A program made the translations under genes and the position numbers. The notes below the pieces were generated by a model. That model was given only the letters and a program-made list of their open reading frames with translations. It was not told where the DNA came from and did not search any database. A DNA stretch of 38,883 nt from Candidatus Nomurabacteria bacterium (GTDB lineage: Bacteria; Patescibacteriota; Minisyncoccia; Phycocordibacterales; UBA9973). Below, piece after piece: positions 1,048 to 23,332 of this stretch (position 1 is its first letter; each line of letters begins with the position of its first letter). The stretch is taken from assembly GCA_023267195.1 (NCBI GenBank), contig JAHFNT010000002.1, positions 151,830 to 190,712 of the forward strand. Reading direction: 5' to 3'.

Positions 1048-2592
<1,545 letters not shown>

Positions 2593-2809
2593 AAAAGTTA
2601 ATTAGAACGAAACAAAACAAAAAACAGCAAATTTTTTGCCTGCCCCGCCGATTGTAGGCGGGGTTTACTTGTTCCTAGCTCTTGGAATTCAAAAAAATAA
2701 ACAAGCTTGCACTTGTTCTCAAAAATTCATTCTGTTTTCAAAGAAGGGTTACTTGTCCGCCTGTGGCGGAAATTAAAACGTCATCCCACTAAAGGAAAGG
2801 CGTAGGGAG

Positions 2810-12019: not shown

Positions 12020-13696
12020 TTATATTTTTATTTCTTTACTGATCCATCCCTTGTTGGTAAATACAGGTATTTCTTCGGTTCTCGTTGGCAAAATATGCGC
12101 AGGTGTGTAAGCTTTTAAAACATAACCGCCTTTTTTGGTAAGCAAAAAATAGCGGCCTTTATCATCAGAAACGGTAAAGTTTACTCGATCTCCACTTGGA
12201 TTGTGCAAAGCCACAAAACCGAAAGGAATAGCCTCGGAGGTTATTTTATCTTTGGTCAAACCGAAGGGTTTTAACTTAAATCCAGTACTTCTAATGATGG
12301 AAGTTAAAACTATAATTCCCAAAATGATAAAATTATTTTTGTTTGGATTCACTACAACACTGGCAATACCCAAAACTGATCCAATTGCAAATAAAAAATT
12401 GGCAATATCTGCCAGCGCATTGTTGAGCTGCACTGAAACAATTCCAAAATAAAAATTGTGTGAGATAGATTTTTCTCTGGGGTCCATCGGCAGATCAAAG
12501 TTTGTTAAAGCACTTGTTATATTGACTTGCCCCCCTTTGTAAATATTTGGATACAGTTCTTGTTCAATTTGAGTAGGTATTTCTTTAGAAGGAAAATCGT
12601 ACTTAGTTCTAAAAGCTTTTAGCTCTATAGGTTCTTTGGCCAAATCATCTGCGAGCAGGAAACCATATCGGCCATTTTCATCAGCGATAACAGTTTGCAA
12701 TTTTCTAGAATATTTATTTAAAATTTCCACTCGCGCAAAAGGAATCGGTCTTTTAGTAACGGAATCGTAAACAGTACCCCAAGGTTTAGGAGTTTTTCTG
12801 ATTCCCAAAATTTGCATTAAAGCAATAAAAAGATAGAAAAGATAGTTTAAAAATGGCAAACCAGACAGAAAAGCAGGCAACAACACGAAAGTTGAAACAG
12901 CCACTGGAATAGCCACAGAAACTTGTTCTATTTTTTTTACATTTGGATTGTTTACAGAACCCTGAATAGAAGTAAATACTTTTTCTATATTATTACCAAT
13001 AATTGAAATAATGATAGGTAATATTCTAGTTTCTTCACTACTTCCTCCACCGCCACTAGGAGGGGTTGTCCCACCTCCACCACCGACGGGAGGAAGAACT
13101 CCACCACCGCCACCACCTGGAGGGGTTGTCCCACCTCCACCACCGACGGGAGGAAGAACTCCACCACCGCCACCACCTGGAGGGGCTCCGCCACTTCCAC
13201 TACGAATACTTGCTGGTCTCCAGTCGGTTTTTACTTTATAGTCTGCAACAGCACAAGAATTTGTATTAATACAATTAAAACTAATAACACTGCTGTCAGA
13301 CAGAATTGTGGCATAACCTAAAAATTCTCCACTTGAATTTATAGTAACACCACTAAAATTAATCCAACCTATATTTTTCCCCCAAGCTGAGCCAGCAAGT
13401 ATTCCCTCTCCGTTGTTTGTAACCCCCGAGACAACCGGCCTCAGATTTATCCAGCCGTATTGAACACTCCAAAAATTCCCAGTAACCGCTGTATCAGTGA
13501 CCCGAACATTGCAATTATCACAACCAAAATTTAGCCAGCCGGTGCGTTCTCCCCAAGCTTCTTTATATGTAGAATCGATTGTCCCAATCGTTTCTGATGC
13601 AGAAACTAAATTATTAAGAGAAAAAAATAAAGATAAAACCGCAAAAAACAATAAACCTAAAGAGGGTAATTTTATTCTAAAAATTTTTTGCAACAT
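12020..13696 (-). CDS. membrane-anchored surface protein with WINF motifs, Gly/Pro-rich linker and two carboxypeptidase-regulatory-like domains
   Basis: GWLNFGCDN, YGWINLRP and GWINFSG motifs; GGGGTTPPGGGG linker; TM pairs; two PWGTVYDSVTKRPIPFARVEIL-type domains; start trimmed to MLQKIFRIK. Confidence 0.8.
   Translation of the reverse strand: MLQKIFRIKLPSLGLLFFAVLSLFFSLNNLVSASETIGTIDSTYKEAWGERTGWLNFGCDNCNVRVTDTAVTGNFWSVQYGWINLRPVVSGVTNNGEGILAGSAWGKNIGWINFSGVTINSSGEFLGYATILSDSSVISFNCINTNSCAVADYKVKTDWRPASIRSGSGGAPPGGGGGGVLPPVGGGGGTTPPGGGGGGVLPPVGGGGGTTPPSGGGGSSEETRILPIIISIIGNNIEKVFTSIQGSVNNPNVKKIEQVSVAIPVAVSTFVLLPAFLSGLPFLNYLFYLFIALMQILGIRKTPKPWGTVYDSVTKRPIPFARVEILNKYSRKLQTVIADENGRYGFLLADDLAKEPIELKAFRTKYDFPSKEIPTQIEQELYPNIYKGGQVNITSALTNFDLPMDPREKSISHNFYFGIVSVQLNNALADIANFLFAIGSVLGIASVVVNPNKNNFIILGIIVLTSIIRSTGFKLKPFGLTKDKITSEAIPFGFVALHNPSGDRVNFTVSDDKGRYFLLTKKGGYVLKAYTPAHILPTRTEEIPVFTNKGWISKEIKI
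13059..13184. repeat. 60-bp in-frame tandem repeat (two perfect copies plus partial) coding Gly/Pro linker
   Basis: Lines 13081 and 13141 are identical over about 55 bases; unit translates to GGVLPPVGGGGGTTPPGGGG. Confidence 0.95.
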
Positions 13697-13821
13697 TTCA
13701 TCTATTGTATCAATATTATTCTTGTTATAAAAGAAAGGATGGGGATAAAAAATTTGCATGTATAGTGCTATAACATTGCACACAAATTGCTTTTTGTTTT
13801 AAAATATGCGATAATGGTCTT

Positions 13822-20387: not shown

Positions 20388-20846
20388 TTATCTTGTTATT
20401 TTAAGCAAACTATTTTTATAAATTTTTTCTTTATATGGACGCATCCTAACTATTTTTACCGAAAGACCCTTACTTTTTAGATCTCTTTTTAAATTTTTCA
20501 CATAAGCTTTTTGGTCATAACCTAAAGCTATGATATCTGGACGTATTTTTATAATATGTGGAATATGATTCTTCACTCCAGATAAAATTACCTTATCAGC
20601 CAGCCTGCACTTTTCAACCAAAAACACTCTTTCTTGCTCGTTTTTACTTGGGTATTCACCTTTTATTCTGAAAACATTTCTATCTCTAGCTATTGAAACA
20701 ATTAAAAATGAATTTTTGATGAAGTTTTTCGCCTGCTTAAAAAAATTAATATGCCCCTTGTGCAAGCCATCAAAGGTTCCAAAGACCATTATTCTTGTCC
20801 GCCCCCCTAGTATTGTTTTTTTACTATCCACAGATTTCTTTGACAT
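20388..20846 (-). CDS. cytidylyltransferase-like nucleotidyltransferase (FAD synthetase/glycerol-3-P cytidylyltransferase type)
   Basis: RIMVFGTFDGLHKGHINFFKQAKNF (HxGH) and DIIALGYDQK. Confidence 0.88.
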   Translation of the reverse strand: MSKKSVDSKKTILGGRTRIMVFGTFDGLHKGHINFFKQAKNFIKNSFLIVSIARDRNVFRIKGEYPSKNEQERVFLVEKCRLADKVILSGVKNHIPHIIKIRPDIIALGYDQKAYVKNLKRDLKSKGLSVKIVRMRPYKEKIYKNSLLKITR

Positions 20847-20884
20847 AATCTACTAAGTAATTATATACTAGATGTGTTCGTTTA

Positions 20885-21000
20885 AAAATAAAGGAAGCCT
20901 TTGGGGAAACTGGTTTGATTCCAGTACAGTGCCGCTACGGTAAGTCCCGAACACCATCAGGTGTAGGGAACAAGTCCGAATACCAATCGCTTTATGATTA
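20885..21000 (+). ncRNA. cobalamin riboswitch aptamer
   Basis: GGGGAAACTGGTTTGATTCCAGTACAGTGCCGCTACGGTAAGTCCCGA...AAGTCCGAATACC matches the B12-box architecture (GGTgaaAaTCC...GCCGCTACTGT...AGTCaGgAtACC). Confidence 0.9.
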
Positions 21001-21044
21001 GTCCCGAGCAGGAATTACTTCTTAGTTTATTTTGAAGGACCCCA

Positions 21045-21070
21045 AATTCTGCCCGAGCAGGATTTTTTTT
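21045..21070 (+). terminator. riboswitch expression-platform terminator AATTCTGC-CCGA-GCAGGATT-TTTTTT
   Basis: 8-bp stem with one T-G pair followed directly by a U-tract, 6 nt before the ATG at 21076. Confidence 0.75.
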
Positions 21071-21075
21071 ATTTT

Positions 21076-21504
21076 ATGGCCAAAAAGAAAAGGGTAATAA
21101 TCGTATTTTTAATTTTAGCAAGCCTTTTAGGATTATTTTTTTATGCTTCGGAAAATACTTCTAAAAATCCACCTCTGCCCGACTCCCTCACCACTCAAAA
21201 AGAAAAAGTAAAAGCACCTCAATTCACCAAAACAATCTTGGAGGTAAACGGTGAAAAATACGATACGGAAATTACTGATAATTCAAGTGTTTATGATTTT
21301 ATGAATAAACTTCAGGAGGAGAAAAAAATAAATTTCACTAGCAAAACTTATACCGGAATGGGTAAACTGATTGTTGCAATAAATGGCATAAGAAGCGGCA
21401 ATGAGAGAACTTGGATTTATTATGTGAACGGCATTGAAGCGCAAGTCGGCGTTTCAAATTATAAAATAAAATCTGGAGATATTATCTCTTGGAAATATGA
21501 ATAA
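21076..21504 (+). CDS. DUF4430 (transcobalamin-like C-terminal domain) lipoprotein/membrane-anchored protein
   Basis: N-terminal TM then KTILEVNGEKYDTEITDNSSVYDFMNKLQEEK...ERTWIYYVNGIEAQVGVSNYKIKSGDIISWKY. Confidence 0.88.
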   Translation: MAKKKRVIIVFLILASLLGLFFYASENTSKNPPLPDSLTTQKEKVKAPQFTKTILEVNGEKYDTEITDNSSVYDFMNKLQEEKKINFTSKTYTGMGKLIVAINGIRSGNERTWIYYVNGIEAQVGVSNYKIKSGDIISWKYE

Positions 21505-23332
21505 AATTATTAAAATAATATTGTTAGGGGTATTTTTCTTAGCTAGTGGAAGCTTGGCATTGGCGGCTGACGTAAATTTAACAATCCGTGATAGAGCAAA
21601 TATTGTATTTTCTGGTACTGTTTCATTGCCAACTAGCATAACGAGCTTAAACGATATTGATACAACCCCGCACGCAGTAGATCCGAGTAGTGTATTAGCC
21701 ACTGTGGGGAGCGCCGATGAGACAAGCGGGAATTTTAATATTTCCAACCTAACATATTTCAGCTCCTTCAACTCCCTTTATTTAAAATGCATCACTTATT
21801 CTAGCGGAGAAAAGTGCGATGATTGGCAATATGTAGTCAATGGTTCGTACCCCCAAACAGGGATGGACCAAAATATATTAGCTGGCGGGGAAAATATTTA
21901 TGTATATTTTGGCCCGCAAAATAGAGTTCAATTAAGTTCCAATAATATAAATCAAAATGGCACACTAGTGGTGACAGCCCAAAAATATGATTATGAAAAC
22001 AATGCTTGGATTACCCGAACCGGAGTAACGATAGGTCTCACACAGTCAGATCCACTCAATCCATTTTTGCCAACAGAAATACAAACTTTGGCGGTAGATG
22101 ACAATGGACAAGCCAGCTTCTCGTCAATCCCTGCTGGTTCTTACGATGTTGGAGTGAGGGAAGATTTTTATTTTCCAAACCAAAAATTAACCGTCGTGGC
22201 ACCATCCATGAACGTATCGGGAGCTGGTAGTGGAAATTCTTCTTCAGGTTCAAATTCTCAAGAACAAGCAAATAAAAGCGAACCGAGTCCGATAGCTGAG
22301 ACAAAAAAGATATTTGATCTTGAAAAAGCCTTTGATTTTATAGCTGCGCAACAAAAAGAAGACGGGTCTTTCGGTGAAGATTTATACACTGATTGGGTCG
22401 CGTTGGCTCTGGCTTCTGGAAACTCTCAAGAACAAGTTATAAAATTAGTTAAATATTTTGGAAAATCTAAGTTAGAAAATCCGCAGTTAACTGATTACGA
22501 AAGACGCGCGATGGCCCTCATGTCGCTCGGACTCAACCCATACAACACCAATGGTGAAAATTATATAGAAAAAATAACTGCTGGTTTTGATGGAGAGCAA
22601 TTCGGAGATGCGCATGAATACAATGATGATGTGTTTGCTTTGATCGTTCTTTTAAATGCCGGCTATTCTGATGAGGAAGAAATAATCAAGAAAAGTACTT
22701 CTTTTATACTGGGAGCACAAAGCGAAAATGGTTCTTGGAGCGAAAGCGTAGATATGACCGGCGCTGTAATGGAATCGTTAGCAAAATTTAATCAAAATGA
22801 GCAAGTCAAAAACGCTCTCTTGAAAGCAAAAGATTTTCTAAAACAAAAACAGAACAACGATGGTGGGTGGGGTAATGCTTCATCGACTGCCTGGGCAATA
22901 GAAGGCATACTTGCAATGAACGAAAAGCCGGAGGACTGGAAAAAGGGAGAGGATATGTCATTTGATTATTTGGCTACGCTGCAAGATATTGATGGTGGAA
23001 TAAAAAATTTACAGGCAGACAAGGAAGATGGTAATTTGCAAAACAAAATTTGGGAAACTGCCTATGTTGCTTCCGCTTTATCAGGAAAAACTTGGGGTCA
23101 AATAATGCAAAAATTTGAAAAACCAGCGGAGGGTTTAAACCTGCCTACTAAGGAAGTTAGTCCAGTAAAACAAATCAGTAAAAAAAGTGCTAAAAAAATA
23201 TCTACCTTGGCTCAAACCGCCACAGCCATAAATGCAATTACCCCCTCCTCTAATTTAACCCCAAAAAACCTAGAAATTCTACCCAGAAAAAGCTGGTTTG
23301 CAAGATTGCTAGAAAGCATCTTTGGATTCTAG
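21497..23332 (+). CDS. secreted transcobalamin-like protein: DUF4430 domain plus prenyltransferase-like alpha/alpha repeats
   Basis: Signal peptide; WQYVVNGSYPQTGMDQNILAGGENIYVYFG; AFDFIAAQQKEDGSFGEDLYTDWVALAL...FILGAQSENGSWSESVDMTGAVMESL...FLKQKQNNDGGWGNASSTAWAIEGIL repeats; overlaps the preceding gene by 8 nt. Confidence 0.87.
   Translation: MNKIIKIILLGVFFLASGSLALAADVNLTIRDRANIVFSGTVSLPTSITSLNDIDTTPHAVDPSSVLATVGSADETSGNFNISNLTYFSSFNSLYLKCITYSSGEKCDDWQYVVNGSYPQTGMDQNILAGGENIYVYFGPQNRVQLSSNNINQNGTLVVTAQKYDYENNAWITRTGVTIGLTQSDPLNPFLPTEIQTLAVDDNGQASFSSIPAGSYDVGVREDFYFPNQKLTVVAPSMNVSGAGSGNSSSGSNSQEQANKSEPSPIAETKKIFDLEKAFDFIAAQQKEDGSFGEDLYTDWVALALASGNSQEQVIKLVKYFGKSKLENPQLTDYERRAMALMSLGLNPYNTNGENYIEKITAGFDGEQFGDAHEYNDDVFALIVLLNAGYSDEEEIIKKSTSFILGAQSENGSWSESVDMTGAVMESLAKFNQNEQVKNALLKAKDFLKQKQNNDGGWGNASSTAWAIEGILAMNEKPEDWKKGEDMSFDYLATLQDIDGGIKNLQADKEDGNLQNKIWETAYVASALSGKTWGQIMQKFEKPAEGLNLPTKEVSPVKQISKKSAKKISTLAQTATAINAITPSSNLTPKNLEILPRKSWFARLLESIFGF

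Follow-up and report, generated by a model that had tools for sequence, protein, structure and literature searches.

Among the cobalamin riboswitches described so far, the one upstream of metE in Priestia megaterium, whose repressing logic was established by mutagenesis, is the closest in layout to the locus considered here (PMC10653944). The two have in common a kissing contact between L5 and L13, which for our locus is predicted from complementarity, and the use of the 3' side of P13 as an antiterminator against the 5' arm of a terminator. Two further systems share some of its elements. In env8HyCbl, as quoted in PMC10653944, L13 of the kissing loop carries a bulge. The ppe2 riboswitch of Mycobacterium tuberculosis combines a fused P1-P3 arm, a truncated P6 extension and an L5-L13 kissing loop, and acts on translation initiation via a uORF (PMC11260477).

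The whole stretch of DNA analysed here, in the following called the window, is 38,883 nucleotides long and comes from an apparently uncultured, CPR-like lineage in which gene regulation is little known. Altogether, we consider it very probable that the window holds a repressing, transcription-terminating cobalamin riboswitch upstream of a putative B12-capture operon, thus a regulatory circuit that can be read and tested. The features on which the following analysis is built are these:

1048-2595, minus strand: 16S rRNA gene, with a 3' end that has no anti-Shine-Dalgarno sequence
20840-20869, plus strand: sigma-70-type promoter, TTGACA-18-TATACT, 11 of 12 matches and the best of the region; transcript start expected near 20876
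20858-21005, plus strand: cobalamin riboswitch aptamer (limits of the Rfam match; RF00174, 34.4 bits, gathering threshold 31.5)
20930-20934, plus strand: L5 loop UGCCG, closed by P5 AG/CU (20928-20929 with 20935-20936; Rfam alignment)
20970-20984, plus strand: B12-box region ACAAGUCCGAAUACC (Rfam alignment), kept in relatives
21002-21013, plus strand: P13-L13 hairpin UCC(CGAGCA)GGA, with L13 at 21005-21010; it encloses the left repeat copy, 21003-21013
21005-21055, plus strand: predicted antiterminator, 21008-21013 with 21047-21052 plus 21005-21006 with 21054-21055 (P=0.98)
21018-21037, plus strand: middle stem-loop CUUC...GAAG of the predicted fold, within the antiterminator; analogous hairpins of relatives differ in sequence
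21044-21070, plus strand: intrinsic terminator, a 9-bp stem (21044-21065) and U8 (21063-21070), including the right repeat copy, 21052-21062
21076-21504, plus strand: first regulated gene, a 142-aa secreted or anchored DUF4430 protein resembling the transcobalamin beta domain (Pfam PF14478, E 1.2e-13)
21497-23332, plus strand: second gene, overlapping the first, 611 aa, with an alpha/alpha toroid at 270-539 (Pfam SQHop_cyclase_C; structure model)

The aptamer is the single RF00174 match (E 1.2e-7) in this 648-kb genome (648,148 bases, 7 contigs). Its conserved core, consisting of P4, P5-L5, P6 and the B12 box, is present in the Rfam alignment and recurs in 60 family loci, while agreement with the Rfam model is poor for the outer P1/P2 pairs. 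In relatives, the P5 flank shows a change from A-U to U-A. As to class (IIa versus I/IIb), the short P6 extension would suggest a class II cobalamin riboswitch. As for distribution, a cobalamin riboswitch occurs in 60 of the 147 genomes of the family and more sparsely outside it, in 31 of 397 genomes drawn from the order and 34 of 383 drawn from the class, with some overlap with the family in these draws. TTGACA with a -10-like hexamer precedes 31 of 60 family loci, and the end of the -10 element mostly lies 59-63 nt upstream of L5. Several relatives (among L003, L013, L021, L030 and L034) carry an extra hairpin in the P4 loop, and L048 has an insertion of about 100 nt in the P6 extension. Two riboswitch matches on one contig were seen in the class members G729 (G729:C127:15-484), G864 (G864:C7) and G713 (G713:C2); those of G729 lie about 130 nt apart and are a possible tandem.

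A first-pass annotation of this DNA had pointed to an 11-nt direct repeat, CCCGAGCAGGA, and both copies lie in the leader where it placed them, at 21003-21013 and 21052-21062. It had also assigned the right copy to a terminator with a T8 run, 6 nt before the ATG. The hairpin, AAATTCTGC-CCGA-GCAGGATTT (21044-21065, 9 bp, -8.2 kcal/mol), and the T8 run at 21063-21070 were recovered, with the right copy forming the loop and the 3' arm; the spacing had to be corrected, since the ATG stands at 21076 and thus 5 nt after the run. The 11-nt repeat itself was considered as the conserved unit and rejected, because among the tabulated terminators full identity between the copies is found only in the window and in L041. 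Full identity is therefore incidental: conservation holds for the left element and for a terminator 5' arm able to pair with it. Competition of the left element with the terminator 3' arm for one middle strand accounts for the direct repeat. A terminator loop in the role of L13 was likewise discarded: CGGCA, the complement of L5, is found there in some relatives, such as L011, L018, L021 and L030, and is absent in many loci, the window included.

A P13-L13 hairpin is expected in cobalamin riboswitches at just this position after the aptamer, and the left repeat copy with its preceding U forms one. The motif CGA(A)GCN follows the aptamer without exception in the 83 loci in which a pattern located the core (CGAGCA in 74, CGAAGCA in 4, CGAGCU in 4 and CGAGCC in 1). 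The stem around it varies: it is UCC/GGA in the family and elsewhere, for instance, GCCU/AGGC, CCCU/AGGG, UUUCUU/AAGAAA, CUUC/GAAG or CGUUCUU/AGGAACG. Over 25 distinct hairpins, 81% of P13 cells are paired; shuffling gives 62.6% and sliding the register 31-60%. Double-sided changes number 29, compared with 11.7 in shuffles, none of 500 shuffles reaching as high. L068 and some class loci with CGAGCU in L13 fit poorly. In the window, L13 CG(A)GCA and L5 UGCCG can form five pairs with one A bulged out (-2.8 kcal/mol). As both loops are nearly invariant, the predicted kissing contact is supported by complementarity and by what is known of this riboswitch family rather than by covariation. The window P13 has only 3 bp, and folds computed without constraints hardly ever contain it.

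L13 and the 3' side of P13 can also pair with the terminator 5' arm (21047-21055). In detail, the left GCAGGA(AUU) pairs with the AATTCTGC arm in two ways, with a G.U pair, which is favoured, or with a bulged G. When a nascent transcript ending at 21056 was folded, the antiterminator reached P=0.98, extended across an A.C mismatch by C21005-G21055 and G21006-C21054; with P13 and L13 held closed, its probability fell to 0. In-silico mutation gave the matching result: changing the left GCAG lowered the antiterminator to 0.04 and changing the right arm alone to 0.02, while changing both restored it to 0.99. Folding the leader and mutating the left repeat were among the checks that the first-pass annotation had proposed for its idea that the left copy pre-empts the terminator, and the competition it expected is indeed predicted, in agreement with the comparison of the 83 loci. 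The left copy is thus a predicted antiterminator arm, as claimed; what the annotation had missed is its role as P13-L13 and its kissing partner L5, which would make the choice dependent on the ligand.

The comparison with relatives adds weight at this point. Their terminator arms differ from one another (AAUUCUGC, ACUCCUCUCGG, GCCCUUGCUC, CCCUUGCUU, CUCUUGCU, GAGCUUCUGCUUCGG and others), yet they are complementary to L13 and the P13 3' side. Paired in silico with 54 different terminator arms of the riboswitches, the left 11-mer gave a median duplex energy of -9.65 kcal/mol, compared with -5.0 kcal/mol for 184 controls (p 9e-16, where p-values overstate independence because the loci are related), and none of 300 shuffles of the left element matched the real duplex energy. 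The controls were other terminators of the same loci, pooled over loci, with the riboswitch terminators of relatives masked. A first control per locus had given a weak median, with 10% of control arms as good, because relatives' riboswitch terminators were unmasked and a single locus is a weak test. For the window alone about 11% of control arms pair equally well, so that its single-locus energy is not decisive. Of 65 loci folded as nascent RNA, about 95% had the antiterminator above P=0.9, compared with 25% for control arms and 38% for shuffled left elements, and the predicted antiterminator used the loop bases of L13 in 62 of the 65.

Conserved parts, a covarying P13, a recurrent complementarity and competing predicted folds are thus at hand, and from these we infer cobalamin binding, the L5-L13 contact and the direction of control. 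Because the layout is of the P. megaterium metE type, the best reading is that the switch is OFF when the ligand is bound and ON when it is free. During RNA synthesis the aptamer would form first. With cobalamin bound, L5 (UGCCG) would kiss L13 (CG-A-GCA, five pairs with the A bulged), and this would stabilise the short P13 of the left repeat and hide GCAGGA. The arm at 21044-21052 would then be free to pair with 21057-21065, and with the terminator formed RNA polymerase would stop at U8, upstream of the DUF4430 gene. If cobalamin is lacking, a P13 of three pairs would be too weak, and L13 with the P13 3' side would turn to the terminator 5' arm (UGCC(C)G, which resembles L5), pre-empting the terminator so that the operon is transcribed.

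Control at the level of transcription would agree with the ribosomes of this organism. The 3' end of the window 16S rRNA, GUGGAAUAAUUCAAUUUG, is without CCUCC and ends in GGAAUAAUUCAAUUUG, compared with GGAUCACCUCCU in other bacteria. An anti-Shine-Dalgarno sequence was absent from all 29 family 16S ends read, the window included, which have the same or nearly the same sequence. In the class, it was absent from 27 of 28 ends (window and one congener included), G539 keeping GGAUCACCUCCUUU, in a sample that is biased because these ends are the best matches to the window 16S. Shine-Dalgarno-like motifs precede 3 of 29 window genes, which is the background level (0.106 per random 18-mer). A translational switch that sequesters or masks a Shine-Dalgarno sequence was rejected on these two grounds, and a transcriptional platform makes sense with such a 16S rRNA, as the first-pass annotation had argued from a genome that appears unable to use Shine-Dalgarno sequestration. 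A published survey of organisms without the anti-Shine-Dalgarno sequence lists Bacteroidetes, Mycoplasma and Carsonella as the chief groups and nowhere uses the word 'candidate' (PMC6107228). The literature searched, with subscription papers outside its scope, gave no match for anti-Shine-Dalgarno together with Patescibacteria and only a loose match for cobalamin riboswitch together with CPR.

Some further observations concern the 16S genes themselves. GGAAUAAUUCAAUUUG is a conserved replacement kept by the family (window 1048-1095, minus strand; L112-L140, L142-L171). The 16S match of many relatives breaks into pieces near query position 222, roughly 0.7-1 kb apart (e.g. G128:C1:670730-671941), which suggests that the gene holds an intron or another intervening sequence; in class members there is an additional break near position 62.

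Even so, the hairpin could act mainly on translation, by blocking ribosome entry 10 nt upstream of the AUG, in which case the U-run would only be an AU-rich start region. We regard this as unlikely, if the most serious of the alternatives. A ribosome without an anti-Shine-Dalgarno relies on an unstructured start region, and the window stem does end 10 nt upstream of the AUG, within the ribosome footprint. Against this, a U-run follows the hairpin in nearly all family loci, and the distance to the start codon ranges from 4 to well over 60 nt; measured from the terminator to the ATG it is mostly 4-40 nt, in several loci 60-150, and this variability points to termination. A hairpin so near the AUG may hinder translation as well, and the effects on termination and translation may add up.

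Across the family, terminator and antiterminator are nearly isoenergetic (median difference 1.3 kcal/mol). In the window there is a gap of 4.7-7 kcal/mol in favour of the finished terminator, which means that the choice has to be made during RNA synthesis; the switch could be leaky or constitutively terminating unless kinetics decide. That the terminator is essentially constitutive, as a decayed or leaky switch whose repeat no longer regulates in this strain, draws its support from this gap; it appears improbable to us, as all elements are intact and conserved, the antiterminator dominates before the 3' arm emerges (P=0.98) and L108 has kept its layout intact at a comparable imbalance (6.4). 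Still less credible is the opposite direction of control, in which cobalamin promotes readthrough, for which cobT of A. halodurans is a precedent (PMC10653944): in cobT, P13 shares a strand with the terminator, whereas in the window P13 (21002-21013) and the terminator (21044-21065) use different segments and can coexist, as in a repressing layout. Finally, a chance repeat in an unregulated leader, suggested by the rarity of the full 11-nt match in relatives (window and L041), is refuted by the comparative data: the left element is kept across the 83 loci, and terminators of dissimilar sequence are complementary to it. Any non-simple 11-mer repeat arose in 68 of 20,000 shuffles of the leader with dinucleotides kept (0.34%).

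Returning to the repressing switch, the genes behind it point to a B12-controlled operon with transcobalamin-like domains. A weak similarity links the 142-aa DUF4430 protein to the C-terminal region of transcobalamin (2bb6, E 0.021), and DUF4430 is the C-terminal domain in vertebrate transcobalamins (PMC4350170). In the case of the 611-aa protein, the model (pTM 0.50, with weak linker regions, so that the toroid alone was used) superposes on intrinsic factor-cobalamin, 2pmv, with Z 20.8 and an rmsd of 3.1 over 236 residues; squalene-hopene cyclases score higher, with Z 24. The alpha/alpha toroid fold is common to many unrelated enzymes. Toroid and DUF4430-like beta domain are encoded by adjacent genes in the window and form one protein in the class relatives L090 and L093, 3' of the riboswitch and in the transcobalamin order, toroid then DUF4430. 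Additionally, the genome encodes a ribonucleotide reductase akin to those of the RTPR family, which depend on adenosylcobalamin (E 2.9e-84, short of the curated cut-off). With these transcobalamin-like domains and this RTPR-like gene, B12 capture would be a coherent role for the operon.

Other relatives differ behind the terminator. In L002, L010, L019 and L034 the first gene is a different one (249-298 aa), the terminator GACTCCTCTCGGTAGGAGTT is near-identical in all four, and DUF4430 lay just under the Pfam cut-off in the two of these first genes that were scanned. The first open frame past the terminator is long (466-692 aa) in L013, L026 and L033, and a Pfam scan of the L013 and L033 proteins gave no match. 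Elsewhere in the window, a 60-bp tandem repeat (13059-13175) lies inside an open frame at 12020-13783 on the minus strand.

Compared with known systems, the window has the features of a metE-type platform, namely a P13 3' side complementary to the terminator 5' arm and a terminator with a U-run. The kissing pairs differ: in P. megaterium metE they are CCG with CGG, whereas those predicted for the window are UGCCG with CG(A)GCA, one A being bulged. Unlike in metE, the L13 loop bases themselves take part in the predicted antiterminator (62 of 65 loci), and the window aptamer is shorter, with P1 and P3 apparently fused. A short P6 extension is found in env8HyCbl as in the window, and the bulge in L13 is a second likeness; env8HyCbl masks a ribosome-binding site, whereas the window platform would be transcriptional. 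The likeness to M. tuberculosis ppe2 covers the apparently fused P1-P3 arm, the truncated P6 extension and the predicted kissing loop, and ends at the control of translation initiation via a uORF (PMC11260477). A lineage-wide variant could be proposed, in which a near-invariant L13 CGAGCA is exchanged directly between L5 and a terminator arm resembling L5, the use of the same nucleotides makes kissing and antitermination mutually exclusive, and control has stayed transcriptional because the anti-Shine-Dalgarno was lost; we judge this idea plausible, if slightly more likely wrong than right. With an invariant L13 and drifting terminators, the P. megaterium model becomes testable over dozens of natural variants, and since the ribosomes are without an anti-Shine-Dalgarno, such leaders suit the question of whether loss of Shine-Dalgarno initiation pushes riboswitches to transcriptional control. 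The window riboswitch adds a well-conserved case to a known mechanism, from a lineage whose ribosomes are without the anti-Shine-Dalgarno.
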